Source: a virus
Virus record (IMG/VR): IMGVR_UViG_3300021077_000171
Coordinates: 1 to 24,352 of that record
Direction: 5' to 3' (one strand)
Length of the DNA stretch: 24,352 nucleotides
Below the pieces are notes generated by a model. It made no database searches and had not been told where the DNA came from. It worked only from the letters and a program-made list of their open reading frames with translations. Position numbers and translations under genes: made by a program. Below, in pieces: positions 12,884-24,126 of the stretch. The stretch's first letter is position 1. Each line of letters starts with the position of its first letter.

Positions 12884-14590
12884 TTATTGCGGATTCACCG
12901 GTCCAAAGTATTTATCAAATAAGGCAACGATCTTCATTACGGTATCGTCACCCAGTTCAGTTCGTATTCGCAACGCCAACTCTCTCAAATCAGCATTCCG
13001 TGTCACATACCATGACACCATTTCAGCAAAATGCTCCTTGACATTCTTCGTAGCTTGTTCGTCAATGTAGACACCCAGCGGTTTCGTCATCTTCCAGTTG
13101 CCGGCTTCAAAGATATTGCCACCGCCAACATTCTCCCACGCCAAGTCTGCAAACTCTTTAAAGAATTCCGGAGCACTGTAATGGATGCTGTGTCCGATTT
13201 CGTGAACAACCGTCCAGCCAAAGTCACCGCCTTCACTGCTCTTGGGGTCAATGAAAATCGATCGATGCTCAAGCGAATACACGGCCAATTCGTTTTCTGC
13301 CAGATCTTCACGGATGATATTGGTCAACTTCATATTCGACTTCATCTGCTCATACGGCATCACGTCCATGGTATCGGCCATGATGTTCATTTCGTCAAGC
13401 GCAAACTCATCGTCAACACTGATTCCATAGATGTCCTGCATATACTTGGCAGCATCAGCAGGATTAACAAAGGCACCAATCCGTTCCGCATTGAAATACG
13501 GTTCGGGTGCCGGCATCTTCTCGACTTCTGAGATGTAGTTTCTGATTCCGCGTTCATCCGGTTGCGTCGGTTTCAAGATCGACTGACCGGTTTCATATTC
13601 GCAGTAGCAACCACAGTTGATGACGTTGTTGGCGCTGGCCCCCGGATCGTGCGGCCTCATCATTTCCTCGCCATCTACCGTAAACCGTTCATTGAACTTT
13701 AACGTGGTTCCGGCCACTGCCTTATGCGATTTTCTTGCACTGGCACGAATCAGTTGATACCACGTCTTCAACACCTCGACACCAAACCGTTCTCGATATT
13801 CGTTGGCAAACTCATACTCACCAAAGTTGGCAGCATCCGCTACCTCGGTAATGGCGATCGTAGACGCATTGGACTTGTCACCAAGGACAGACTTGACTCG
13901 ATTGACCATTGTCGATCGATCGTCTCCATTGGCATAACCACTGGCAAGACTTGACTGCAGACGTTTCTTTAGGTTCTCAGTAATCGTTTGCGTCTTGATC
14001 TTGAAATCTTTGCCGAACAAATACTCATGCGCTTTGCGATTAAATTGACTCCACTGGGCATCAAAATTCACGTTGAACTTAATGCTAAAAGGCGGGTTCG
14101 CGCCAACCTGTTTGTATTGGATCTTTGTGGGTATGGACGCAACACTGCGCTCCGCGTACGGGAACAAGGACGTATTTGAATCAATGCCCTTGCTCTTTTT
14201 CCGGAACACCTCGTAGCGCTTGTCCGTGGCCAGACTCAGGTCTTTGTAGACCTGCTCGGTGCCGCCTCGAAGCGCAGATGTTTTTGAATTTGCGATCATA
14301 AGACCCAGCGTCAATAAAAAAGGCAAGCCATTGACTACATCCCCATTGGTCAGATTCAAGTTCTTGATAACCTCGGGATCATATTCCTGTCTTGCCTTTA
14401 TCGGAACATAGTTTATTTCAGCAACCTGTTTGTTCAAATACTGATAGACCTGGTCTCGTTCTTTAACTTCGTCTTTATCGGAGGGAACGTCCTCAATAAT
14501 GTCGTCGGTTACGTCATCATACAAACCACCCAACGACTTTTCCAACTCAGCGACATCCGGCCTAAAATCATACGAGTGATGTACTGGCAT
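12884..14590 (-). CDS. MuF-type head morphogenesis protein fused to a C-terminal HExxH metallopeptidase domain
   Basis: The first part of this 568-residue protein (about residues 200-335) has the MuF/SPP1 gp7 signature: an SLASGYANGDDRSTMVNRV helix, then AITEVADAANFGEYEFA, ASARKSHKAVAGTT with the conserved R..H, and MRPHDPGASANNVINCGC with Cys pairs (C326, C328, C330). MuF proteins sit near the portal and enter the capsid. The C-terminal part carries VVHEIGHSIHY (H463-E464-x-x-H467), followed by KEHFAEM (E519, E523), giving a zincin active site with a candidate third ligand. The middle (about 340-450) resembles a linker plus a small beta domain. The start overlaps the C2H2 gene by 23 nt and lacks an SD. 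The protease may act inside the capsid or be injected as an effector. Confidence 0.75.
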   Translation of the reverse strand: MPVHHSYDFRPDVAELEKSLGGLYDDVTDDIIEDVPSDKDEVKERDQVYQYLNKQVAEINYVPIKARQEYDPEVIKNLNLTNGDVVNGLPFLLTLGLMIANSKTSALRGGTEQVYKDLSLATDKRYEVFRKKSKGIDSNTSLFPYAERSVASIPTKIQYKQVGANPPFSIKFNVNFDAQWSQFNRKAHEYLFGKDFKIKTQTITENLKKRLQSSLASGYANGDDRSTMVNRVKSVLGDKSNASTIAITEVADAANFGEYEFANEYRERFGVEVLKTWYQLIRASARKSHKAVAGTTLKFNERFTVDGEEMMRPHDPGASANNVINCGCYCEYETGQSILKPTQPDERGIRNYISEVEKMPAPEPYFNAERIGAFVNPADAAKYMQDIYGISVDDEFALDEMNIMADTMDVMPYEQMKSNMKLTNIIREDLAENELAVYSLEHRSIFIDPKSSEGGDFGWTVVHEIGHSIHYSAPEFFKEFADLAWENVGGGNIFEAGNWKMTKPLGVYIDEQATKNVKEHFAEMVSWYVTRNADLRELALRIRTELGDDTVMKIVALFDKYFGPVNPQ

Positions 14591-15059
14591 TGGTTGTGTG
14601 TGCGCTATTCATGTGAATCTGCAGTTTACGTTTTGACGGAAACTTTAGTTCGCACTTTGTGCAGGGAAACTTTTTTGTATCAACAGATTCATCAGCCATG
14701 GCATCTGTTTCCGCTGCAGGGGATGTAGTATCAGCATTGACTACTGCATCAGTTGCCGCGGCATTTTCCAGAGGTTGTTCCGGTTGGACCGGAACATTGA
14801 GCGCAGATTCAATCGGAACAACAACGACCTGAGTATTTTCTGCTTCACCAATGTTCTCCTTGGATTGGGTTGAAACGGCTTTTGCTTTTTGATTTATCTC
14901 ATGTTCTGCTTTTTTAAGATCTACACACTCCCAGCCGCGCTCGCCATGCATAGAAACAGCATGATGTGCGGATACAAGAACCGATTGGCCTGGTGCAACA
15001 AGTTGACCAAGGTGACGTGTTGCAATCGTGCCATTGTATCGTAATTCATGGTTATCCAT
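14568..15059 (-). CDS. Phage protein with C-terminal C2H2 zinc finger, following the capsid gene
   Basis: The chosen start at ATG 15059 lies 7 nt after AGGAG and gives 163 aa. Longer versions would begin inside the intercistronic hairpin. Residues 1-45 form a small domain (GTIATRHLGQLVAPGQSVLVSA, then GERGWECVDL). A low-complexity Ala/Glu/Val/Pro linker follows. The last 30 residues contain a textbook C2H2 finger: C-x2-C-x3-F-x5-L-x2-H-x4-H, introduced by a Phe-Pro pair. The protein sits between the capsid polyprotein and the MuF protein, so it may be a head decoration or a DNA/RNA-binding protein that travels in the head. I do not recognise the N-terminal domain. Confidence 0.7.
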   Translation of the reverse strand: MDNHELRYNGTIATRHLGQLVAPGQSVLVSAHHAVSMHGERGWECVDLKKAEHEINQKAKAVSTQSKENIGEAENTQVVVVPIESALNVPVQPEQPLENAAATDAVVNADTTSPAAETDAMADESVDTKKFPCTKCELKFPSKRKLQIHMNSAHTTNASTSLV

Positions 15060-15089
15060 TGCCAAACTCCTGTTCATGATGGAATAAAG

Positions 15090-15122
15090 AGGGTGACTAG
15101 GGCCATACAACCTAGCCACCCT
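15090..15122 (-). terminator. Intercistronic hairpin after the capsid gene (attenuating terminator)
   Basis: A 12-bp stem with one mismatch (AGGGTGGCTAGG / CCTAGTCACCCT on the minus strand) lies 25 nt after the capsid stop and is followed by CTCTTTATTCC. It looks like a partial terminator or a 3'-end protector that keeps capsid mRNA more abundant than the downstream genes. The U-tract is interrupted, so termination would be incomplete. Confidence 0.5.
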
Positions 15123-15147
15123 TGGGGTTGCCTCGCGAGACACCTTC

Positions 15148-17904
15148 TTACGAAAGAACGGTAACCAGCGACATTTTTTCGTTAATAGGTGAACTCAAAG
15201 AATCTTCCTGATAGATGTAGTATTCATCGCCGCCGATAAGCTGGCCAGTCGTGCTACGAACAGGATACGGCCCTTTGAGAACGAGCGGTTCAAAGATTCG
15301 GAAGATGGTCGCATCCTTTTGAGACAACAAGATGTAAGCATCATCGAACACATCGGAACCGAAGTGCGGCAGACCGCCGGTGAAGCCATAATTTCCTTCA
15401 CCAACGGCTGTCGGTGTCTGGAAACTTTTACGTTGACCCATCGCTTCATAGGCCTTTGCCTGCGTCATATAATTTGAGGTAACCTCAGAGGCAAGCAAGA
15501 ACTCAGGTTTGTACCCGCGTTGTTGCCGTTGCAAGGCGTTTTTGTTTGTGACTGCGAAAAGAAGGCCATTCAAATATTCTTCCCATTTGGTGCCGGCAGG
15601 ACAAGCAGTCAAATCAAAACGAGTTTCATTTGTTGCTTTATTGCCACTCACAACAATTGGTGTAGCATTCGGAACGACAACCACACTACCGTTAATATCA
15701 ACAAACGTGATTGTCGCGTTTGGGCCATCAAGCACGTAGAACATATTACCGGTGGTGACCATTTCATATTCACCGATCGCAACACCGCCGACATTGACGC
15801 CAAATGGTTCACCTGTTGAAATCGATGCATTGGCTACAACTTGGAACGATGTTGTGGCGCCATTACCTACACCATTGAACGTAAACGGCAGCGAACCATA
15901 CGATAATGCTGTATCACGCATATTGTTGAAAACCATCTTTTGGAGTGAACGTTTCAAGTCCAAAATCAGGTTGGAGATACCCTGACCGACACCGGTGATA
16001 TTCGGCGTACGTTTCGACAATGTAGCGAATTCGTCTGAGAATACAGCAGAGAGCTTGCTCGATGTCGCATCAATGTCGAACCATTGTGTGATCAGTTTGC
16101 CCGTCGACATCGGCTGAAATTCGCCTTGTTTGATATCGGCGATACGTCGTTTTGAAGGATTATATGTTTTCTGTGTGGAGGCTAATCCATTTTCACGACG
16201 ATAGAGCGTAATAGGCACTTGATCGCGCTTATGCTCCATCGGTCCAAACAAAGTCAAGCTCTCGACAAATACATCGGCATAAACTTCAGCCAACACGATA
16301 CGAGAGATTGTATATGGTACCTGGAAATCCGCGGGCGTTTGCGTTGCATCAGCAAGAGCAACAATCTTCTCACGTTCTGCCATCAGTGCAGTTCCATGAA
16401 TCGTGTCATAAATTCTAAGAATGCGTTTAACCACTTCAGATCGATTTTTACCAACGAGAACATCTTCTTTCTTGGAATTTATATATCCGTAACCGGAGAT
16501 CTGGTCAACCAAGTATTCTACACCTTTGAGATGTTCCGGACCGACTGTAATATCCATGGTGGATATTCCCTTTCCACTGATACCTTCGCTACGTTTTCGT
16601 TCTTGGACTACTCCAAGATTCATTACCTTCATCAGCTCATTGACCGATGTGACGATTGCTTGTTCATCAACAAAATCACGCGATTTGAGCGTATCGGTAA
16701 TCATTGTTTTCGCGTCATCGGCAACATCCAGTTTTGAGATCAAATCAGTTAAATATGTGGCAAGAGTTTTTGCCTTTGCATCTGCCGCTAGTTGTTGTTG
16801 CTGCTGCTCAACATAACCTTTGAGCAACGCCGAAGTGTCGGTGATTGCTTTTAATGCAGCTACACCAACCTTGCCATCAACAGGCGCAGTAGCTTGAGCA
16901 GCAACTGGAGCCACTCCAGGCGTAACCGATGGAGTAGCGGGAACCGCTGCGGATATAGAAGCAGGTGTGGGAATCGCCGTTGTGTCGTTGACAGGGAGCA
17001 ACGATGCTTGCTGTGGCATTATCTTATCGACAATTGTCTTAAGATCGCTCGAAAGCGCAACAAGGTTTGCATTTTTTTTGGCCGCATCGATGGTTGTATC
17101 AGAGAGCAAGGTTTCGACGCCAGACTTCAATTGGTTGAACGAGTCAACGATTGCCTTCGGCATCTCTCCATTGTTCTTCGCCATCTGATTTTTGATGGTA
17201 TCAACCAGAGATGTTACAGCCTCAACTAATTTTTGGTTTTGTTCAATCAAAACTTTCGGATCCATAATGTCCTCCATTTGGAAAGTGTCTTCGATACGTT
17301 TTGAGTTTAGGATCGTGTCAAGTTCGACCGTATCGAGAAGTCGAAGTCTTGTCCGCTCTCCAGCGGCGGCTGAATCGAGATAGCAAAAATCATATCCTAA
17401 TATTTTTACAATCTTGTCGACGATGATGTAGTAATCGCCGTTATCATCTTCACGCACACTCTGCACACCAAGAGCACGTTGAGAAGCACCCAACTCAACG
17501 CCCTCGTCAAACAGTTGCTGGGTCTTTACGCCTTTTTCTGTTCCAAGCATTCTGATATTGACAACGGTTTCCCCTTTATCGTTGAGTTCAACGATCTCAG
17601 GAATGCCGGCGATGTCTTCCGGATTACCGCGAATGTCATCGCCCTTGCTGGGATCAGGGTGATTGATATACGAAGTCAGTTGCCATTTATTCTGCATCTG
17701 GTCTTGGACGGCATCGCGCTGAACCTGCATCGGAATAATTCTATTGTTACCATTGACAATGTTCGCAATCGAACCAATAGTTTGAAATCGATATTTCTGG
17801 TCAGTCAACTTCTCGACCCTGATCGGAACTACATCAGAGATCATCTGAATGGTCTTACCATTGAATTCCATCAACTTTTTTATTTTATCGCTTGGTAGGG
17901 TCAT
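15148..17904 (-). CDS. Prohead protease - scaffold - major capsid polyprotein
   Basis: The 918-residue protein starts at ATG 17904, with AAGGAG upstream. A TTG at 17925 would put the SD inside the gene. Residues 1-190 match T4 gp21-type (U9/S80) proteases: NGNNRIIP (51-58), YINHP with H82, and GVELGASQRALG with S141 in place of the usual SSRG. Residues 215-440 are helical, with an Ala/Pro/Thr-rich hinge (300-345) and a poly-Gln patch (368-371), as expected for scaffold. From about 450 to 918 is a capsid-like region: a helical start, a VPYTISRIVLAEVYADVFVE segment, RENGLASTQK, and a beta-rich insertion (about 690-780) before a final EYYIYQEDSLSSPINEKMS. T4 encodes these three parts separately. 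Maturation cleavage would have to separate the capsid part from the rest. Confidence 0.75.
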   Translation of the reverse strand: MTLPSDKIKKLMEFNGKTIQMISDVVPIRVEKLTDQKYRFQTIGSIANIVNGNNRIIPMQVQRDAVQDQMQNKWQLTSYINHPDPSKGDDIRGNPEDIAGIPEIVELNDKGETVVNIRMLGTEKGVKTQQLFDEGVELGASQRALGVQSVREDDNGDYYIIVDKIVKILGYDFCYLDSAAAGERTRLRLLDTVELDTILNSKRIEDTFQMEDIMDPKVLIEQNQKLVEAVTSLVDTIKNQMAKNNGEMPKAIVDSFNQLKSGVETLLSDTTIDAAKKNANLVALSSDLKTIVDKIMPQQASLLPVNDTTAIPTPASISAAVPATPSVTPGVAPVAAQATAPVDGKVGVAALKAITDTSALLKGYVEQQQQQLAADAKAKTLATYLTDLISKLDVADDAKTMITDTLKSRDFVDEQAIVTSVNELMKVMNLGVVQERKRSEGISGKGISTMDITVGPEHLKGVEYLVDQISGYGYINSKKEDVLVGKNRSEVVKRILRIYDTIHGTALMAEREKIVALADATQTPADFQVPYTISRIVLAEVYADVFVESLTLFGPMEHKRDQVPITLYRRENGLASTQKTYNPSKRRIADIKQGEFQPMSTGKLITQWFDIDATSSKLSAVFSDEFATLSKRTPNITGVGQGISNLILDLKRSLQKMVFNNMRDTALSYGSLPFTFNGVGNGATTSFQVVANASISTGEPFGVNVGGVAIGEYEMVTTGNMFYVLDGPNATITFVDINGSVVVVPNATPIVVSGNKATNETRFDLTACPAGTKWEEYLNGLLFAVTNKNALQRQQRGYKPEFLLASEVTSNYMTQAKAYEAMGQRKSFQTPTAVGEGNYGFTGGLPHFGSDVFDDAYILLSQKDATIFRIFEPLVLKGPYPVRSTTGQLIGGDEYYIYQEDSLSSPINEKMSLVTVLS

Positions 17905-18064
17905 TCTGTCTGATCTCCTTAGCAATATTTTCTCTGGTCTGAGAAGTGGGTGTAAATACTATTGCTTTTACAAAGCCAGTGTTCGGCTGAATCAAAACCT
18001 CTTGGTCGCCTACATGCGTACCACCGTTTTCCGGTTTATGCCATCCACTATTTTCATTTCCCAT
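17885..18064 (-). CDS. Small protein (59 aa) overlapping the capsid gene start
   Basis: ATG at 18064, preceded by AGGA with a 7-nt spacer, opens a frame that ends at TAA 17885-17887, overlapping the capsid polyprotein start by 20 nt. Codon choice looks like the neighbouring genes. It begins MGNENSGWHKPENGG and ends in KEIRQNDPTKR, hydrophilic with a central QPNTGFVKAIVFTPTS strand. The capsid SD lies inside it, so the two genes would be translationally coupled. The same frame stays open upstream into the terminator at 18190 without any start codon, encoding TPNYIDAGKQKAHD and TLTITGPY-like sequence, so the ORF could be the tail of a longer lost gene. I do not recognise a family. Confidence 0.5.
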   Translation of the reverse strand: MGNENSGWHKPENGGTHVGDQEVLIQPNTGFVKAIVFTPTSQTRENIAKEIRQNDPTKR

Positions 18065-18173
18065 GTAGGGTCCTGTTATCGTTAAGGTGATGCTGTGGAA
18101 CCAGTTTATTGCGTTCCTGTTTCGATCATGTGCCTTTTGTTTACCAGCATCGATATAGTTGGGTGTGACCGAA

Positions 18174-18232
18174 ACAAAAAAGCCGAATTAACCCCGACAA
18201 CCGGTTAAGGTTCTCGAAGTCGATTCGGCTTT
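18174..18232 (-). terminator. Rho-independent terminator (branched stem)
   Basis: The arms AAAGCCGAAT (18223-18232 complement) and ATTCGGCTTT (18179-18188 complement) form a perfect 10-bp stem and are followed on the minus strand by TTTTTTGTTT. The interior contains a second helix, TAACC/GGTTA, and a CTTCGAG mini-hairpin. On the plus strand no T-tract follows, so it works leftward only. Confidence 0.8.
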
Positions 18233-18290
18233 GTTCACAACTTATCGTTGTTGTTAACCACTCACTGCGTTACCAGCAACTAATTAACGA
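18174..18290 (-). ncRNA. Candidate small RNA or attenuated leader between promoter and terminator
   Basis: A strong promoter (18296-18324) would start transcription at about 18289. A rho-independent terminator ends it at about 18174, giving an RNA of about 115 nt with no ORF of note. Foldable elements in order on the minus strand are: a CGTTA/TAACG pair near the 5' end, a TTAACAAC/GTTGTGAA hairpin with loop AACGATAA, and the terminator stem with an inner TAACC/GGTTA helix. It could act as a standalone RNA, or as the leader of the capsid operon with an antitermination switch, because no other promoter is visible before the structural genes. Confidence 0.45.
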
Positions 18291-18295
18291 TGGTC

Positions 18296-18324
18296 AAGAT
18301 AATCTCCTATCATTTCATTGTCAA
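18296..18324 (-). promoter_or_regulatory. Sigma70-type promoter, leftward
   Basis: Reading the minus strand, TTGACA (18319-18324) is separated by exactly 17 bp from TATCTT (18296-18301), a near-consensus promoter. It lies 40-17 nt downstream of the 112-aa gene's stop (18341) and fires towards the terminator at 18179 and the capsid operon beyond. Confidence 0.65.
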
Positions 18325-18340
18325 GTATATATTCACGTTT

Positions 18341-18679
18341 TCATTTTAGTTTGTTATTCTGAACTGCAACGACCTCAAGAATATTGACGAAGTCGCATGA
18401 CAAATACAGACCATCCGGATGCGTATAATCCGATACCAGAAGAAGATGGACAAATGTAAAAGGTTGATACGTTTTCCTTTTGACAGTGTGTTCACCATAC
18501 TTATCAGATGCAACATATCCATTGGGAACGGACACCGGCGATTCCAATATTTTCGTTACTTCATTCAGATGCGATGTTAATTTTGAGTAATCATATTTCG
18601 CGCCATCGAACCCAACGACACCGCAGGAAAGTTCATTCGACTCGCGCTTATTTGCAGTAACAGTGATTTCTACTTTCAT
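18341..18679 (-). CDS. Hypothetical protein downstream of hipT
   Basis: The 112-residue protein is read from ATG 18679, with GGGTTGTT as a weak SD, 58 nt after the HipT stop. It starts with a strand (MKVEITVTANKRE), has VGFDGAKYDYSKLTSHLNEVTKILE as a helix, and ends with strands LYLSCDFVNILEVVAVQ. This is a small alpha-beta protein without recognisable motif. It may be co-transcribed with hipBST and lies just before a new promoter. I cannot assign a function. Confidence 0.55.
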   Translation of the reverse strand: MKVEITVTANKRESNELSCGVVGFDGAKYDYSKLTSHLNEVTKILESPVSVPNGYVASDKYGEHTVKRKTYQPFTFVHLLLVSDYTHPDGLYLSCDFVNILEVVAVQNNKLK

Positions 18680-18737
18680 AACAACCCATAATTGATAGGC
18701 GTGAATATTTTGGGATACGCCAAAAGTCTGTCGGTAT

Positions 18738-19694
18738 TCATTCTTCTGCTATTCGTTTGTGTTTATTCTTAACAAGCTCTTTATACGCGTCTTTCATTTT
18801 ATTATCAAGAAAGCTTGTATCAATGAGATCATTCCATCGAAGTATAGCCTTATCAAATTTATCGAATATGTTTCTTTGTTGTTTTTCATCCAATTTAATT
18901 ATCTTGAAAGCTGTCGTAAAATCGTTTCTTCTAATGTTGCGTTTCTTTCCGTTAAGAGTAAGTGCAAGCTCTTCCTTATCTTCCGGGTTGACCAATGTAG
19001 TAGCCAACATATCATACGCTGGTGTAAGGATATACCCAATTCCTGGTCGATTGAAGAGCGAAAAGTTTTTCAAGTGCATATCGACATTCCCCGTAAGAAA
19101 TGAGAAGAGCACTTGTTCAAAGAAATTCACCACGTCAAGGCCAGGATTAGATGAATATTTCAAAATAGCTTTGGCAATTTGTTCATAAGATCCATCGTAC
19201 TTTTGTTCGGTCAAGCGTTCAGTAAGTTGACACATATCTTCCATGTGCAATTTACCTTTCTTAGTCCGATCAATACGTTTCGTGATGTATGCCAATGTAC
19301 CGGATTGCATACGAATCAAACTATGCGGCACTGTGGGGATTTTAGACAATTCAGCAAGGTGCATAGTCAAATCTTCTACTTCCGGCATCTGAGGATATTT
19401 AGGTGTAGGTGGTTTTAAAATATAGTTGCCCCATAAACCTACGATTGTAAATCTTTCGGGTTCAATTTTTGTTCTTCCGTTAGCTATTTCCAAAGATAGT
19501 TTCGGCTGAACACCTGTAACAGTTGCTCGACTACGAACTGCTACTAAAGCCAAATCGTACATCTCCTTTTCCAAGTCAGGCAGTACGGGCGCAGCAGATG
19601 AATCAAATATTTTTTTACTGCAAGTCGGATGAAAATCCGTTTGTCCATCTTCTAAGAGTTGGTAGCAATATAAACAGCGGTTATTTTTCATCAT
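18738..19694 (-). CDS. hipT: HipT-like serine/threonine kinase toxin
   Basis: This 318-residue HipA-family kinase lacks the N-terminal subdomain-1 of HipA, which is encoded separately by hipS. It begins with a Cys/His knuckle (C7, C10, H22, C25). The Gly-rich loop reads RATVTGVQPKLSL (T58, T60, where other family members carry Ser that is autophosphorylated). The ATP-site lysine is in YILKPP (K94). The catalytic loop GNVDMHLKNFSL supplies D205 and N210, and the metal-binding Asp is D228 in TPAYDMLA, so the kinase looks intact. HipT of E. coli O127 phosphorylates tryptophanyl-tRNA synthetase, and the target here is unknown. It overlaps hipS by 14 nt. Two adjacent ATGs (19694, 19691) follow AAGGA, and the second is better spaced. 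Confidence 0.88.
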   Translation of the reverse strand: MMKNNRCLYCYQLLEDGQTDFHPTCSKKIFDSSAAPVLPDLEKEMYDLALVAVRSRATVTGVQPKLSLEIANGRTKIEPERFTIVGLWGNYILKPPTPKYPQMPEVEDLTMHLAELSKIPTVPHSLIRMQSGTLAYITKRIDRTKKGKLHMEDMCQLTERLTEQKYDGSYEQIAKAILKYSSNPGLDVVNFFEQVLFSFLTGNVDMHLKNFSLFNRPGIGYILTPAYDMLATTLVNPEDKEELALTLNGKKRNIRRNDFTTAFKIIKLDEKQQRNIFDKFDKAILRWNDLIDTSFLDNKMKDAYKELVKNKHKRIAEE

Positions 19695-20013
19695 ATCCTT
19701 CTATAGCATTTACACTCACTGCACCGATACAATCTTTGCAACACACCAGTAGTAATCCCATCCGGTCTCTTTGATCGAGCTTCCAGTTTTTTTCAGCAAC
19801 ATTGAGCAACCAACCTTCAGGAATCAATCCATCAAAAAATGGGAATAATACATTGTTATGAAATTCCTCTTTTTGCAATGGCAATGTTTTGCTTATCGGT
19901 TCAGGATTTTCCGATTGCAGATACGCAGCATCATACACATAGTGATAACCATTTTCATCCTGCGTCAACAATCCTGCCGTTTTTTCGTATATTTTAATCT
20001 CAGCTTTTCTCAT
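19681..20013 (-). CDS. hipS: HipS-like antitoxin (detached HipA N-terminal subdomain)
   Basis: The 110-residue protein corresponds to the N-terminal subdomain of HipA. It has a strand pattern KIYEKTAGLLTQDENGYHYVYDAAYL, then PISKTLPLQKEEF, the conserved FPFFDGLIPEGWLL (Trp68) and DRMGLLLVCCKDCIGAVSV. In the tripartite HipBST systems this piece is a separate gene and acts as the antitoxin that inserts a conserved Trp into the HipT active-site region. It starts directly after the hipB stop (TAA-ATG) and overlaps hipT, so all three are coupled. The CC..C cluster near the C-terminus is notable but its role is unknown. Confidence 0.85.
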   Translation of the reverse strand: MRKAEIKIYEKTAGLLTQDENGYHYVYDAAYLQSENPEPISKTLPLQKEEFHNNVLFPFFDGLIPEGWLLNVAEKNWKLDQRDRMGLLLVCCKDCIGAVSVNAIEGYDEK

Positions 20014-20229
20014 TTAAAGTGTGCTTCTATTTGATTTAACCGGTCCTAACTCATATCCGAAAAGTTTTAGAACTTGGTTTACTTTATCAAGACGAAGCGT
20101 AGTTTTTCCCTGCTCCATCTCGCGGACAAACCTCAAACCTACTCCAGCTTTTTCTGCTAATTCAGGTTGAGTAAGATTTGAAATCTTGCGCTTTGTTTTT
20201 ATAAAATCCTGCAAATCTGATTTATTCAT
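20014..20229 (-). CDS. hipB: HipB-like HTH antitoxin/repressor
   Basis: The 71-residue protein is an XRE-type helix-turn-helix regulator: LTQPELAEKAGVGLRFVREMEQGK is the HTH (residues about 19-42), then LRLDKVNQVLKLFGYELGP, as in HipB and Y4mF-type antitoxins. It is first in the hipBST operon and its promoter contains three palindromic operators, so it should autorepress the operon. The start at 20229 has no classical SD apart from the AAAGGG in operator 1, about 9 nt upstream. The C-terminal tail is short (KSNRSTL). Confidence 0.88.
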   Translation of the reverse strand: MNKSDLQDFIKTKRKISNLTQPELAEKAGVGLRFVREMEQGKTTLRLDKVNQVLKLFGYELGPVKSNRSTL

Positions 20230-20236
20230 TATTTAT

Positions 20237-20328
20237 ACCCTTTAGGGTGTTTATAGCATCGTAACTTTCATATTATACCCTTTTGGGTGTAAATATGCAA
20301 GTAATATTTATAATATACCCTTTAGGGT
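20237..20328 (-). promoter_or_regulatory. hipBST operator array: three palindromes spaced 40 bp
   Basis: Near-identical copies of TATACCCTTTAGGGTGT occur at 20237-20248, 20277-20288 and 20317-20328 (core ACCCTTTwGGGT). Start-to-start spacing is exactly 40 bp in both intervals. Copy 1 lies in the 5' UTR and its minus-strand AAAGGGT serves as the likely SD of hipB. Copy 2 fills the promoter spacer. Copy 3 is upstream of the -35. This arrangement fits cooperative HipB binding on nearly one DNA face. Confidence 0.8.
20272..20300 (-). promoter_or_regulatory. hipBST promoter
   Basis: On the minus strand TTGCAT (20295-20300), 17 bp, then a perfect TATAAT (20272-20277). Operator 2 overlaps the spacer and the first base of the -10, so repressor binding would block RNA polymerase. 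Transcription would begin near 20265, giving a 35-nt UTR with operator 1. Confidence 0.75.
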
Positions 20329-20402
20329 GCAATATATTGTTTAATGACCACACTATATAATAAGTCCTTTGCTGTTCCATGCATTGTTTTTTCAGCAATA
20401 TT

Positions 20403-20449
20403 CGGCTTATTCACGGAATAGCCGCACTTAATAAAGAGCGACGCTCCTT
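20403..20449 (-). terminator. Paired hairpins at the end of the zinc-ribbon operon
   Basis: Immediately at the stop of the 111-aa gene, the minus strand folds AAGGAGC-GTC-GCTCTTT (20433-20449) followed by ATTAAG, then a second hairpin CGGCTATTC-cgt-GAATAAGCCG with one bulge (20403-20424). The U-tracts are short, so termination may be partial. Together they separate this gene from hipBST. Confidence 0.45.
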
Positions 20450-20783
20450 AAAAATCCCAGGTACTGTTGCAGTTAGTACAATGCGCTTGCGTTGCCTGTT
20501 CTTTTCTCGATAGCCCTGTGACCAATAGCGACGTGCCAAGCGTAAACAATCCACCCATCACCTTGCCGCCGCTGATACCATGTTTTCGTTTAACTGATTT
20601 CGTATGTACAGACCCTTTGGTCTGGCAATGAGGACAAATATAAGCGGGGTTCAGACTTCCCCACCTATAGTCATATTGTTTCGATACACCGGTTGTCGCT
20701 GTCAGCTTTCGATTTGCATTCACGATTCGATTGATAAACAATACAAAAATCGCGATAAGAACAAGAGCCAATATTCCTTCCAT
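20448..20783 (-). CDS. Membrane-anchored zinc-ribbon protein
   Basis: Start at ATG 20783, behind GGGAG with a 5-nt spacer, gives 111 aa. An ATG 15 nt upstream is less well placed. An N-terminal hydrophobic segment (ILALVLIAIFVLFINRIV) forms one transmembrane helix or signal anchor. The C-terminal part is a split zinc ribbon: CPHC (near residue 50) and CTNC near the end, with an inserted Gly-rich hydrophobic stretch (GISGGKVMGGLFTLGTSLLVTGL) between the pairs that could be a second membrane hairpin. It lies 49 nt after the preceding gene's end on the same strand. Similar small proteins with a split Cys ribbon and this Gly insertion exist in bacteria and phages, but their function is not known to me. 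A membrane role such as superinfection exclusion is only a guess. Confidence 0.65.
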   Translation of the reverse strand: MEGILALVLIAIFVLFINRIVNANRKLTATTGVSKQYDYRWGSLNPAYICPHCQTKGSVHTKSVKRKHGISGGKVMGGLFTLGTSLLVTGLSRKEQATQAHCTNCNSTWDF

Positions 20784-20847
20784 GACTACTCCCTGCATAA
20801 GTTTGTATGCCCTAACATATTATTTAGTTTCGGAATTAACAATCAAC

Positions 20848-21351
20848 CTATAGTAATGGAATACAGGTTACAGCTCGTTCCTTGCCGTGGCAAAGACAAC
20901 ATTCACCTGCAGGAACCGTGCCTGTTTTAAGCCAGAACGCATAATCATCTTTATCTGCAGCTTCCAGCTCGCACAGATTCTGGCATTCCATACATTCAAG
21001 TAAGATCAGACCATGACGGTTTGCGTTTTTCACACGCCACTCCGCGTTCGTCAGGTTCTGCAGTCGCCGACTCTTCCGCTTATAGCTGGCAATCTGTTTT
21101 GCGTCGAACGCTTGAGTATTGAAAAACTTCTGCGTCGCCGCCGTTGCCTCTGCCTCGTACTTCTGTCGCCGTATGTTCTCAAGTTTCAGAAGACTCAGGT
21201 AGATATGATGTTCACGTTCGTGCTCGGACTCGCATTCCTCAAAATGCTTCTGCTCGTCGGGCATGAACATGTTCAAAACGTTTTCAAGCGCATATTCATA
21301 TACCGGCAACCGATATATCTTGACAATTTTCTTTGCAACTTTCTTTGCCAT
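20848..21351 (-). CDS. Hypothetical Cys-containing protein, last gene of the JAB operon
   Basis: The real start is ATG 21351, with AAAGGAG 7 nt upstream and immediately after the LPD29 gene's stop. The longer version of the frame is only an antiframe of that gene. The 167-residue product has a basic helical start (MAKKVAKKIVKIYRLP) and a Glu/His-rich segment (EQKHFEECESEHEREHHIYL). A long helical part follows, then a C-terminal Cys cluster CMECQNLCE...GECCLCHG that could bind zinc. I do not recognise a family. Confidence 0.65.
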   Translation of the reverse strand: MAKKVAKKIVKIYRLPVYEYALENVLNMFMPDEQKHFEECESEHEREHHIYLSLLKLENIRRQKYEAEATAATQKFFNTQAFDAKQIASYKRKSRRLQNLTNAEWRVKNANRHGLILLECMECQNLCELEAADKDDYAFWLKTGTVPAGECCLCHGKERAVTCIPLL

Positions 21352-21352
21352 A

Positions 21353-22402
21353 TCATGCTCCTTTAGGAATAAATGATTGTGCGAACGCCCATTTTTCCTC
21401 CGTGAACTTAGCCCACCAGATCTTGCCGTTGTGGAAACTGAATCTGAATCCATGATCGCGCACAGCATCCAATACCTCATCAGAAGGTTTTGTCCCGAAC
21501 AAGATTTCGATTCCGTTCTTCTCCTCGTTCTTACGAACCACAACACCTTCAACCACGACATCGGTTTCGACAACCGGATGTTCAGGCCGCACATAGAAAC
21601 TCTTGTTGTCCACCGCGTCACCAACTCGCCTGATGATGTCGCGTTCAATTTCAGCTCCCGTTACCGCGTCAATCATTCGATAGTCATCATACCGAACATT
21701 GAGACCAAACTCCGATTTCGCAATCTCAACGTGTCGTTCAAATCCAACCCGTCGCTGTGCAAAGACATATTTCGAGCCGCCAAACACATCCGGAAACGGG
21801 CTGTCGCTGTATTCGTAGATGTCTTCCATGCCGTTGAAGTAACCTTCTTCATATTTGCTGACGATCACTTCAACCTCTACCTTGGTTGGACCATCATCCC
21901 AACTCACATCGATCGAGTTGCCACCGCTATACGATCGGGATTTAACCGAGAACTTCTGGCCCGGGAACGCATGCGCCAGTTCCTTCTTGATATTCCGCGA
22001 CGCCAACACCCTGGACTTCTCACCGCCAGCCGTGGTTTCTAGATACGGATACTGTGCCGGCAACTGCTCGCGCAGCTCCTTCAGCTTCCGCTCTTCCTCG
22101 ACCTTTTCTAACCTCGCCTTCTCCAATGCGGTTTCGGCAACGATGACTGCCTCAACAATCTCAGCTTCCGTCGCCACGTCCTCAAGGATTGTCCAATGCC
22201 GCACCACAGATTCCGGCAACATCTTGCAATAGAAGTGACCGAACACAATATCCAAAACGGCGCCGCCACCGGTTAGCATCACCCCGCCAAGAAGTGTTTT
22301 TACCGTTTCCGGATGCTGTTCGCCATGAACGGCCATAACGATTCCGGCATTTCCAGAACGGTCTCTTACGTGTTGCCCTCGCCCAATTTTTCCAGTATAC
22401 AT
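21353..22402 (-). CDS. LPD29-domain polyvalent-type protein
   Basis: The 349-residue protein starts at ATG 22402 behind AAGGAGAGAGG. Residues 1-75 form an SH3-like or small beta domain (KIGRGQHVRDRSGNAGIVMAVHG), followed by a charged coiled coil (about 80-115). At about 130-200 comes an LPD29-like domain: ASRNIKKELAHAFPGQKFSVKSRSYSGGNSIDVSWDDGPTKVEVEVIVSKY, the known N.kkeLk.aFPg.kFsV.s..ysggssi.V.W.dGPt pattern. The last 50 residues contain NGIEILFGTKPSDEVLDAVRDHGFRFS and WWAKFTEEKWAFAQ, a motif shared by many plasmid and phage polyvalent proteins. Such domains occur in large proteins injected with mobile DNA, but here they stand in a mid-size protein. Its biochemical role is not established. 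Confidence 0.7.
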   Translation of the reverse strand: MYTGKIGRGQHVRDRSGNAGIVMAVHGEQHPETVKTLLGGVMLTGGGAVLDIVFGHFYCKMLPESVVRHWTILEDVATEAEIVEAVIVAETALEKARLEKVEEERKLKELREQLPAQYPYLETTAGGEKSRVLASRNIKKELAHAFPGQKFSVKSRSYSGGNSIDVSWDDGPTKVEVEVIVSKYEEGYFNGMEDIYEYSDSPFPDVFGGSKYVFAQRRVGFERHVEIAKSEFGLNVRYDDYRMIDAVTGAEIERDIIRRVGDAVDNKSFYVRPEHPVVETDVVVEGVVVRKNEEKNGIEILFGTKPSDEVLDAVRDHGFRFSFHNGKIWWAKFTEEKWAFAQSFIPKGA

Positions 22403-22412
22403 ACCTCTCTCC

Positions 22413-22757
22413 TTATGCTGCTTTAGTTTTTATTTTCTGCAATTCCTGACTCCTTGGATCTTCCCAAGACCAACCACATTTGAGACAAGTTCTTATATCT
22501 TCAATGCGATGAACAAAACTATCGGTGCAATAACAACGCGGACACGCGATGTCATCACACATCTCATTGAATGCCTCATCATAATACTGGTCCATGATTT
22601 CGTCGTTTTCTACACATACGCCGCACAAATCAAATGATTCATTTTCGTAAGCACTAAAATGTTTTTCACATCGGTCACATCGGCAAACAATCTCAACAAA
22701 ATCGCCGAGGCTGTTGCCGCATCCGTATGTATCACTCCGTATACGTCGCAGTTCCAT
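22413..22757 (-). CDS. Double zinc-ribbon protein
   Basis: The start is ATG 22757, fused to the preceding stop as TAATG. Upstream in-frame residues are antiframe. The 114-residue acidic protein has four Cys pairs: CRCDRC, LCGVC, CPRCYC and CLKCGW, giving two zinc ribbons separated by an acidic helix (ENDEIMDQYYDEAFNEMCDD). Nothing else in it is recognisable. It may be a nucleic-acid or protein-interaction adaptor within the operon. Confidence 0.65.
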   Translation of the reverse strand: MELRRIRSDTYGCGNSLGDFVEIVCRCDRCEKHFSAYENESFDLCGVCVENDEIMDQYYDEAFNEMCDDIACPRCYCTDSFVHRIEDIRTCLKCGWSWEDPRSQELQKIKTKAA

Positions 22758-23194
22758 TACCGTCCCTTTCTGGTTTCTTTGCAATCAGGATATTTTATAC
22801 AACCGTAGAACTTTCCAAACTTGCCTTCACGTAGCACCATCCATTCGCCGCATCGACATTTAATAAGACCGTGATTAACTTGTTCGTTTATCGACAGCAG
22901 CCGCGTTTCAAGATTGTTACGCCATCCCTGCACTCGATACACCTTTGCATCGCTGCCGACACCTCGACTATGTTTGGTAGAGTAAATTACAAGACGAATT
23001 GCGTCTTCTCCGACACCTCTTGACATTCCTCCCAAGGTTACGGAGGAATACATCCGAATTTCGAGATCCGATTTATCGGTCACAGCCTTAACAAAGACCA
23101 ATTCATGAGTCCCTGGAACGACGATTTGCTTAAAACTGCGAGCCTCCATAAACTCATTCATTTCCTCGATCGATATTCTCTGGTACGAGCTCAT
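22757..23194 (-). CDS. Protein with C-terminal topoisomerase-type zinc ribbon
   Basis: The 145-residue protein overlaps the RadC-like gene by 4 nt (ATGA) and the next by one base. Residues 1-108 form an unrecognised alpha-beta domain (EEMNEFMEARSFKQIVVPGTHELVFVKAV, later YRVQGWRNNLETRLLSI). The C-terminus has CRCGEWMVLREGKFGKFYGC, then KYPDC, which is the type IA topoisomerase C-terminal zinc-ribbon pattern (C.C...M..R.g..G.F.gCs.yP.C). This module binds single-stranded nucleic acid in topoisomerases and is found alone in some phage and restriction-associated proteins. Confidence 0.7.
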   Translation of the reverse strand: MSSYQRISIEEMNEFMEARSFKQIVVPGTHELVFVKAVTDKSDLEIRMYSSVTLGGMSRGVGEDAIRLVIYSTKHSRGVGSDAKVYRVQGWRNNLETRLLSINEQVNHGLIKCRCGEWMVLREGKFGKFYGCIKYPDCKETRKGR

Positions 23195-23682
23195 AGAAGT
23201 CCTCTTTCAGCGAATGATGTAAAAAATCCCCCCTCGCCAAAAATGATATGATCCTGCACAGGAATACCCAGTATCTTTCCGGATTCAACCAACTGTTTTG
23301 TGATCGATATATCCTCTTGGCTTGGTTCTAAATTTCCACTCGGATGATTGTGTGCAAACATAACGGCAGATCCACAGCACGTAATCGCAGCACGAAACGC
23401 CTCACGTGGATGCACTAATGATGAATTGACAATGCCAATACTTACCGTGTCAATCGCTACACATACCATTCTGGCGTTCATGACGAACACCATGAATTTC
23501 TCGGTCGGTGCCTCGTGGAATAGAAATCCATAATTACTCGCAAGGTCCGATGGCTGATTAATAGATTCTCGCTTAAATCCGCTCGGCATTCCCTCTACAT
23601 CACGCAATCGCCATACCATCTCTTTCAAGCGATATGATTCATACGTGGGAACGACACACCTATGATACTCTTGCTTCCTCAT
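23191..23682 (-). CDS. RadC-like JAB domain protein
   Basis: The 163-residue protein is a stand-alone JAB/MPN domain of the RadC type. It has the N-terminal Glu in EKFMVFVMNA (E61), the HNHPSGNLEPSQED metal motif (H111, H113, S115, D124), then the DHIIFGEGG ending. It lacks the N-terminal helix-hairpin-helix of chromosomal RadC, as mobile-element versions often do. All zinc-binding residues are intact, so a metallo-hydrolase activity is possible but the natural substrate of RadC-like proteins is not established. It starts at ATG 23682 behind AGAGGAAAAGCAG and leads the operon transcribed from the promoter at 23745-23774. Confidence 0.8.
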   Translation of the reverse strand: MRKQEYHRCVVPTYESYRLKEMVWRLRDVEGMPSGFKRESINQPSDLASNYGFLFHEAPTEKFMVFVMNARMVCVAIDTVSIGIVNSSLVHPREAFRAAITCCGSAVMFAHNHPSGNLEPSQEDISITKQLVESGKILGIPVQDHIIFGEGGFFTSFAERGLL

Positions 23683-23885
23683 CTGCTTTTCCTCTACTGT
23701 TTATTATATATGTTCATTATTTATTAAGTAATGTTATAATGAATAATGTAACTTGTGAGTGACCGTGGTGTCAATATTATGGCCTTTCTAAAAACTTGAT
23801 TGTTTAATGGTATAGGTTATGAGATAAGAAGCCGCTATAAAACATTTGGGATCGATTGTTACCGCATTGGGAATGAATTGAGTGT
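23683..23885. other. Intergenic region between the ATPase end and the JAB operon
   Basis: This 203-nt AT-rich stretch has the -35/-10 pair for the operon and no plausible ORF. I see no strong terminator after the ATPase stop. There are no long direct or inverted repeats. Confidence 0.5.
23745..23774 (-). promoter_or_regulatory. Promoter of the JAB/zinc-ribbon operon
   Basis: Minus strand TTGACA (23769-23774), an 18-bp spacer, then TACATT (23745-23750), in a strongly AT-rich tract. Transcription would start near 23738, giving a UTR of about 56 nt before the RadC-like start at 23682. Confidence 0.6.
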
Positions 23886-24126
23886 TCATCTGGATTGTTT
23901 TTTTAGCTCTTCCATCTTGACCATTCCGTCTTCAATTGTTATGCCGTTGCCCCGACTCCCCACCTGAGTCGTAAAGAATTGAAAGTCCTTATCCGTCTCC
24001 GCTGCCTTGATGAACAAAGCATATGCATCATCGTCCAACTTTTCGATTCCATCAACGCATACGATCTTGAGCTTACCAGCCATTGCCTTGGCGATGCCGA
24101 TAGCAATATCAAGCAGGCGCAATCTT
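23886..24126 (-). CDS. C-terminal part of a phage AAA/SMC-type ATPase
   Basis: The downstream part of the frame reads LDIAIGIAKAMAGKLKIVCVDGIEKLDDD, resembling the end of phage RecF/SbcC-type ATPases, where a signature helix is followed by a Walker B strand and a post-Walker acidic residue (here VCVDGIEKLD). A short strand (FQFFTTQV) and a charged tail follow before the stop at 23886. Everything N-terminal is missing: upstream the frame runs into unrelated GC-rich sequence and then a UvrA piece. Codon use of this part matches the phage. The gene would sit directly before the JAB operon and may be part of the phage's replication or repair block. Confidence 0.55.

Follow-up and report, generated by a model that had tools for sequence, protein, structure and literature searches.

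We found that a phage-borne hipBST toxin-antitoxin operon is preceded by an array of three operators set at a fixed pitch, and that phages without hip genes carry the same operators as isolated pairs. The window that we analyzed (24,352 nucleotides) is the entire virus record IMGVR_UViG_3300021077_000171, and its tail tape-measure, tail-sheath and head genes identify it as a contractile-tail phage. Taken as a whole, it is very likely that these sequences form a phage-borne hipBST operator array whose pitch is set by contacts between bound complexes and which represses the operon cooperatively, a reading that would also account for the free pairs of other phages, with Hip proteins as their likely readers. 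The surprising part of the finding is the presence of free operator pairs once per phage genome; no report of phage-borne Hip operators was found by title or abstract start in the open-access literature searched.

The motif TATACCCTTTwGGGTG occurs three times upstream of hipB: TATACCCTTTAGGGTG at positions 20234–20249 (copy 1), TATACCCTTTTGGGTG at 20274–20289 (copy 2) and TATACCCTTTAGGGTG again at 20314–20329 (copy 3), all read on the plus strand. The starts (20234, 20274 and 20314) are separated by exactly 40 and 40 bp, and base 17 is T, T and C in copies 1 to 3. When up to three mismatches were allowed, only these three copies were found in the window; shuffled windows (n = 100) contained 0.21 copies on average and none reached three. 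The identical 40-bp pitch described in the initial annotation is therefore confirmed. A second virus record (37,258 bases) encodes the same hipT; the part compared (locus L004, 10.4 kb) is 99.8% identical to positions 13741–24112 of the window and contains exactly the same three copies at up to three mismatches. It had been proposed that additional copies of the palindrome could define a larger phage regulon, but neither record contains any copy beyond the three, which indicates that there is no larger regulon in this phage.

The operon lies on the minus strand and is composed of hipB (20014–20229; 71 aa; Xre-type HTH; NCBIfam couple_hipB, Y4mF family), hipS (19681–20013; 110 aa; a separate HipA N-terminal domain; Couple_hipA) and hipT (18738–19694; 318 aa; a HipA_C kinase without the N-terminal domain). 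These are the components of HipBST systems in the same order: an HTH HipB, a lone HipS and a short HipT kinase. Among solved structures, the best relative of the window HipB is HipB(Lp) (8ezt; E = 4.3e-6) and the best relative of HipT is HipT(Lp) (8ezr; E = 7.8e-50), with the catalytic GNvDMHLKNFSL and PAYDmL motifs aligned and retained. The other solved kinases are far behind: the HipA_C protein 7ab3, which we take to be E. coli HipT (6.7e-16), and HipA (2.6e-9). A hipBA operon with a fused HipA was ruled out, since two separate ORFs encode the N- and C-terminal domains of HipA, and so were operators of the HipBA type (TATCC-N8-GGATA at 27/28 bp), since the window presents the TATACC type at 40 bp. 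Judging from its sequence, the operon is a tripartite hipBST (split HipA) toxin-antitoxin system and not hipBA. In HipBST systems, HipT phosphorylates tryptophanyl-tRNA synthetase and is neutralised by HipS.

We then compared the array to those of related operons. When each species was represented by a single genome, the scan yielded 201 relatives of hipT and the best 80 were kept; these are mutually related and the loci are not independent. hipB adjoins hipT in 79 of the 80 relatives, which are mostly from Bacteroidota and Chlorobi; in the last one (L055) the contig ends at the locus and hipS is partial. Sites were scored on the 12 arm bases of TATACC-N6-GGTATA with a threshold of 9. At least two such sites were found upstream of hipB in 79/79 loci (from the best 80 of 201 relatives), which supports the proposal that hipB, located downstream, is controlled by the copies as its operators. 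In this family the unit is the 18-bp palindrome TATACC-N6-GGTATA, and this refines the motif originally described. The window copies depart from this family consensus (10–11 of 12 arm bases): operator O1 spans 20234–20251 (10/12; site at −22 from the ATG), O2 20274–20291 (11/12; 40 bp from O1) and O3 20314–20331 (10/12; 40 bp from O2), all on the minus strand.

Distances between neighbouring sites are 40 or 41 bp in 167 of 186 cases (79 loci, L004 excluded). With L004 included, the 188 distances comprise 86 at 40, 83 at 41 and one at 42 bp, and those at other values than 40/41 are mostly due to stray low-scoring matches. The number of operators linked at 39–42 bp is two in 6 loci, three in 56, four in 16 and seven in one, across the 79 loci; this last locus (L073) presents seven operators in a row upstream of hipB, all 41 bp apart. 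Outside the arrays, 326 matches at threshold 9 were found in 737 kb of loci and these were taken as chance background. We also searched 395 genomes of the same phylum for the exact two-site pattern with pitches of 23–53 bp allowed: 14 genomes were carriers, all exact pairs were at 39–41 bp and the reversed control gave none. When leaving out the second pair of genome G252, the exact pairs adjoin hipB in 13 of 14 carriers, 12 of them also with hipS and hipT and one (L202) with hipB only, the remaining locus (L208) presenting none of these genes. Among 40 hand-chosen genomes of the 80 with hipBST, an exact pair was found in 22 (control: 0). A Pontibacter genome (locus L169, genome G009) presents a second pair before a hipB-like gene, with no hipS or hipT within the 3 kb examined. 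The 40/41-bp pitch is found in Bacteroidota and as far away as contigs classified as Melainabacteria and Cyanobacteria.

The mean pairwise identity between loci is 0.81 for O1 vs 0.47 for the adjoining spacer. The pitch is thus kept while the spacers diverge, which suggests that the pitch itself is functional. Pitches of 40 and 41 bp correspond to 3.81 and 3.90 helical turns at 10.5 bp per turn, and neighbouring sites are turned by about 35–70 degrees relative to each other. This favors contacts between complexes bound at adjacent sites over looping; the regular phase emphasized in the initial annotation is likely meaningful, whereas the looping that it suggested is disfavored. We infer that the fixed pitch reflects a single, invariant contact between the proteins of adjacent complexes. 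The window array is of an ordinary kind, operators by which a toxin-antitoxin system regulates itself, and its variant feature is the strict conservation of the 40/41-bp pitch.

In 2015, Schumacher reportedly described a contact between HipA molecules across adjacent operators that occludes the kinase. By analogy with HipBA, contact between neighbours would make repression of the operon cooperative and keep HipT DNA-bound and silent. The conservation of the palindrome suggests that each TATACC-N6-GGTATA site would be read by a HipB dimer, alone or in a HipB-HipS-HipT complex, and the pitch suggests that complexes on neighbouring sites would touch in one fixed geometry at 40/41 bp. Occupancy of O1, which is on the promoter/start region, would block transcription.

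The position of O1 relative to the promoter was assessed in the relatives. Bacteroidota promoters contain the box TAnnTTT(G), and the end of this box coincides with the beginning of O1 in 59 of the 79 relatives, against 10/79 at O2 and 5/73 at O3 (shuffle maxima of 7, 8 and 5, respectively). This suggests that O1 lies on the promoter in this family and that transcription should begin within O1 or downstream of it, so that control at the RNA level is unsupported. In the window, the TAnnTTTG box of the relatives is absent at O1, and a sigma-70 scan of positions 20180–20460 scored no site. A weak candidate promoter, TTGCAT-17-TATAAT, can be seen by eye around O2 (20272–20300, minus strand), its TATAAT being mostly the right arm of O2, but it was missed by the scan. 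The promoter positions initially assigned to the copies are less well supported than the copies themselves, and a sigma-70 promoter with O2 in its spacer was rejected as the scan scored no site. O1 does overlap the purine stretch AAAGGG, located 8 bases upstream of the hipB start codon, in agreement with the overlap between copy 1 and the probable Shine-Dalgarno sequence reported earlier. The combined DNA and RNA control deduced from this overlap did not hold: the hipB leader RNA folds at −5 kcal/mol (z = −0.41), which is no better than shuffled sequences, and RNA control of hipB by an O1 hairpin was rejected on this basis along with the promoter box found at O1 in the relatives. No terminator-like site was scored in the window array. 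In the interval between O2 and O1 (20251–20271, minus strand), a possible short leader ORF can be read by eye (ATG-AAA-GTT-ACG-ATG-CTA-TAA).

Similar arrays are known from two systems. The hipBST operon of Legionella pneumophila also encodes a split HipA and is preceded by three evenly spaced 18-base inverted repeats with 6-base arms as in the window, which are known in Legionella to be bound by HipB (PMC10653801). The same report describes an intermediate occupancy by HipB for which cooperativity was not clear. The Legionella operators differ by their sequence and by their gaps (53 bp vs 22/23 bp here), and this report mentions them only upstream of hip operons. In E. coli, hipBST is reported to be repressed by HipB alone (PMC10627512). 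The hipBA array of E. coli K-12 resembles that of the window by its 18-bp palindromes with TAT...ATA ends in multiple copies at fixed spacing, which are read by HipB (PMC3376134). It differs by its fused HipA, by its pitch (28, 39 and 28 bp vs 40/41 bp) and by the CC of its operators, which is one base nearer the end than in the TATACC type.

We extended the search to viral contigs using the exact TATACC operator pair with pitches of 38–43 bp allowed. This yielded 68 loci, 49 with a pitch of 41 bp, 18 of 40 and one of 42, and none of 38, 39 or 43. A single locus (L124) presents hipB/hipS/hipT next to the pair and 67 of the 68 are without hipBST. The reversed pattern gave no match in the same viral collection, and chance was rejected as the origin of these pairs. 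When the pitch was widened to 23–53 bp, 91 viral stretches were found, the same 68 and 23 others, 16 of them at 27 bp. The loci L178–L200 include a second pitch class of TATACC-type pairs, 16 of them spaced by 27 bp and 2 by 28 bp, which is the pitch of hipBA operons, with no hip genes beside them. With L124 excluded, the viral pairs form 45 nucleotide families, 34 at 40/41 bp and 5 at 27/28 bp. The core bases of 136 viral sites and 111 host sites are nearly equal in composition (viral and host, respectively): C 0.56 and 0.57 and T 0.39 and 0.35 at the first base, G 0.37 and 0.36 and T 0.43 and 0.48 at the second, and A 0.59 and 0.71 at the third. This suggests that the same protein family should read viral and host sites. 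Extra sites of at least 9/12 within 260 bases were found in 18 of the 68 loci, and at the array pitch in L124 only, plus loosely in L099 (a 9/12 site 42 bases away). The spacers of the viral TATACC pairs are slightly palindromic (35 family representatives, L085–L152; 7 of 2000 shuffles reach the observed value), and no such palindromy was found in host spacers or in the spacers of the TATCC pairs described below.

A second operator system gave comparable results. The TATCC-N8-GGATA sites of E. coli K-12 hipBA are at distances of 28, 39 and 28 bp, and seven other hipBA loci (Klebsiella, Enterobacter, two Pantoea, Aeromonas, Rahnella and an E. coli plasmid) present distances of 27 or 28 bp only, some of their sites being 8/10 matches; overall, 18 of 19 distances are 27/28 bp and one is 39 bp. 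Viral contigs contain at least 120 loci with a pair of this type, and 80 were examined. Among the matches listed, 62 pairs are at 28 bp and 16 at 27 bp (78/83), the five others being at 30, 31, 39 and, twice, 51 bp. The pair at 39 bp belongs to L251, the only hipA-bearing locus among the matches listed, and 79 of these 80 loci are without hipA/hipB. Because the 79 loci without hipA form 15 families, one of them of 55 members, they are less independent than their number suggests. Named carriers include Klebsiella phage Kpn74 (pitch 27), phage ST846-OXA48phi9.1 (pitch 28), Klebsiella phage ST13-OXA48phi12.1 (one arm mismatch) and E. coli prophages with pairs near lysis and terminase genes.

The carriers can be linked to hosts to some extent. 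Among the 12 phage records matching at least 80% of the L096 terminase (some of them duplicates), 10 are phages of Flavobacterium, Cellulophaga, Bacteroides or Polaribacter. Shine-Dalgarno sequences are about as frequent in viral TATACC loci (52/592 genes) as in the genome loci with hipBST (49/607), and less frequent than in the viral TATCC loci (200/725), which was counted toward this host link. Outside the terminase family, no useful named-phage match to the TATACC loci was obtained. For the second system, TATCC-type pairs occur in phages of Klebsiella and of Enterobacter, and hipBA with matching sites is present in one record from each of these two genera, a correspondence by genus and not by strain. 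We searched for HipB in whole carrier records: a homologue of the window HipB is absent in 27 of 28 TATACC records, one 321-kb record presenting a 30% match, and in 21 of 23 TATCC records, the other two presenting weak matches (30–33% identity). HipB encoded elsewhere by the carriers was rejected on these results. The free viral pairs agree with the cognate operon both in pitch and in site consensus, and HipB is not encoded by the phages themselves; their likely reader is therefore a host Hip complex. An incoming phage pair at this spacing would stabilise antitoxin and toxin in a silent assembly.

We further analyzed the distribution of the TATACC pairs using two sets of homologous phage loci collected regardless of the presence of a pair. 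Behind the L096 terminase gene (76 of 80 loci readable), the pair is at 41 bp in 23 loci, at 40 bp in 2 and at 53 bp in 3, and there is none in 48 (shuffles: 0/76). Upstream of the gene for the 197-aa protein of L086 (77 of 80 readable), it is at 40 bp in 3 loci and absent from 74 (shuffles: 0). In L431, the pair separates the stop codon from the sequence by which this stop is directly followed in L436. Just past the terminase stop (L351–L430), sister phages present other palindromes, namely repeats of GGTTACAATCTGTAACC, GGGACAAATTGTCCC and TTTCTGTAGAATTCTACAGAAA, as though this spot were a place of exchange for operator-like cassettes of several kinds. The TATACC pairs are therefore presence/absence cassettes near gene ends: with 24 of 67 loci set aside (ORF overlap or edge), they are nearer the stop of the upstream gene in 26 of 34 codirectional cases, at a median of 5 bases after the stop and 41.5 bases before the next ATG.

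The leading reading, to which we give close to an even chance, is that the free pairs are decoys: many copies on replicating phage DNA would hold host HipB-HipS-HipT or HipBA inhibited, the labile antitoxin being protected and the kinase kept from aborting infection, with both binding and benefit hypothetical. Several observations are consistent with it. An operator unit with neither toxin-antitoxin genes nor HipB beside it was found at 67/68 TATACC loci and at 79/80 of the TATCC loci listed, at a pitch matched in two operator systems. Exactly two single sites, i.e., the pair, were counted in 28/28 whole TATACC records (hand-chosen among the 68, mostly larger contigs, some related, 19–366 kb; control: 0), and one pair was found in each of 23/23 TATCC records among the 80, with two single sites in 21 and a third one in 2 (reversed control: 0 per record). 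The absence of HipB from most of these records, the presence or absence of the pair at one spot and the position of TATACC pairs close to upstream gene ends also point in this direction. HipB of hipBA binds an O1O2 oligonucleotide with a Kd of 0.6 nM, and operator DNA is reported to extend its half-life against Lon in vitro from 74 to over 200 min (PMC3376134). In addition, HipAD, a HipA-family kinase system, is reported to protect against phage (PMC13092281). In contrast, none of the nine named Bacteroidota-type phages scanned carries the pair, and a single pair in a lysogen would titrate little. Titration by free pairs may instead derepress the operon.

Phages are known to produce RNA antitoxin mimics against ToxIN. 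The free pairs would be similar in that the phage supplies an antitoxin-side ligand of a host toxin-antitoxin system, but those mimics are RNA and the hypothetical ligand here is a DNA operator pair. We tentatively propose, at somewhat under an even chance, that one two-operator cassette of 45–60 bp per phage genome acts as a stand-alone 'DNA antitoxin' against kinase-mediated abortive infection, with motif and helical pitch copied from the host Hip promoter (40/41 bp for HipBST, 27/28 bp for HipBA), and that the window array represents the parent form, in which three operators still precede their operon.

Alternatively, the free pairs could be ordinary operators that place a neighbouring phage gene under host HipB and sense the toxin-antitoxin state. 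In Klebsiella phage ST13-OXA48phi12.1 and in E. coli prophages, for example, a start codon follows immediately after the pair, and no bias toward gene ends was seen for the TATCC pairs (14/24, with 33 of 79 set aside). We nevertheless consider this unlikely: unrelated TATACC loci share no gene family, and promoters of a common phage gene were rejected for this reason; gene orientations around the TATACC pairs are much like background; and these pairs follow stop codons more closely than they precede the next ATG. It is improbable that the pairs are sites of recombination, packaging or segregation read by another host protein sharing the motif. They do occur once per genome in varied places, several of them lie between lysis genes and terminase, and 6 of 60 viral loci scanned (L094, L097, L109, L120, L125 and L139) present the pair within 10 bases of a tRNA gene, but each of the two motifs matches the pitch of its own toxin-antitoxin promoters, the TATACC sites also match the core preference, and many homologous phages are without the site. 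Finally, any palindrome folds as RNA, and the spot occupied by the pair holds other palindromes in sister phages. Hairpins acting in RNA, as terminators or to stabilise it, are nevertheless a very improbable explanation for the palindromes of the hipB leader and of phage gene ends, given that they need no pitch of 40/41 or 27/28 bp, that the window array has no terminator-like site and that its leader folds like shuffles.

The fixed 40/41-bp pitch suggests that HipBST complexes bound to adjacent operators have to make contact in a single geometry, and this contact can be tested by a structure. Phages without hip genes keep one operator pair at the pitch of toxin-antitoxin promoters, and this was observed for two separate operator systems. 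If these pairs are decoys, a DNA site would constitute a counter-defence element and Hip kinases would be phage-facing in nature; such elements could then be found by pattern searches where protein annotation is blind.
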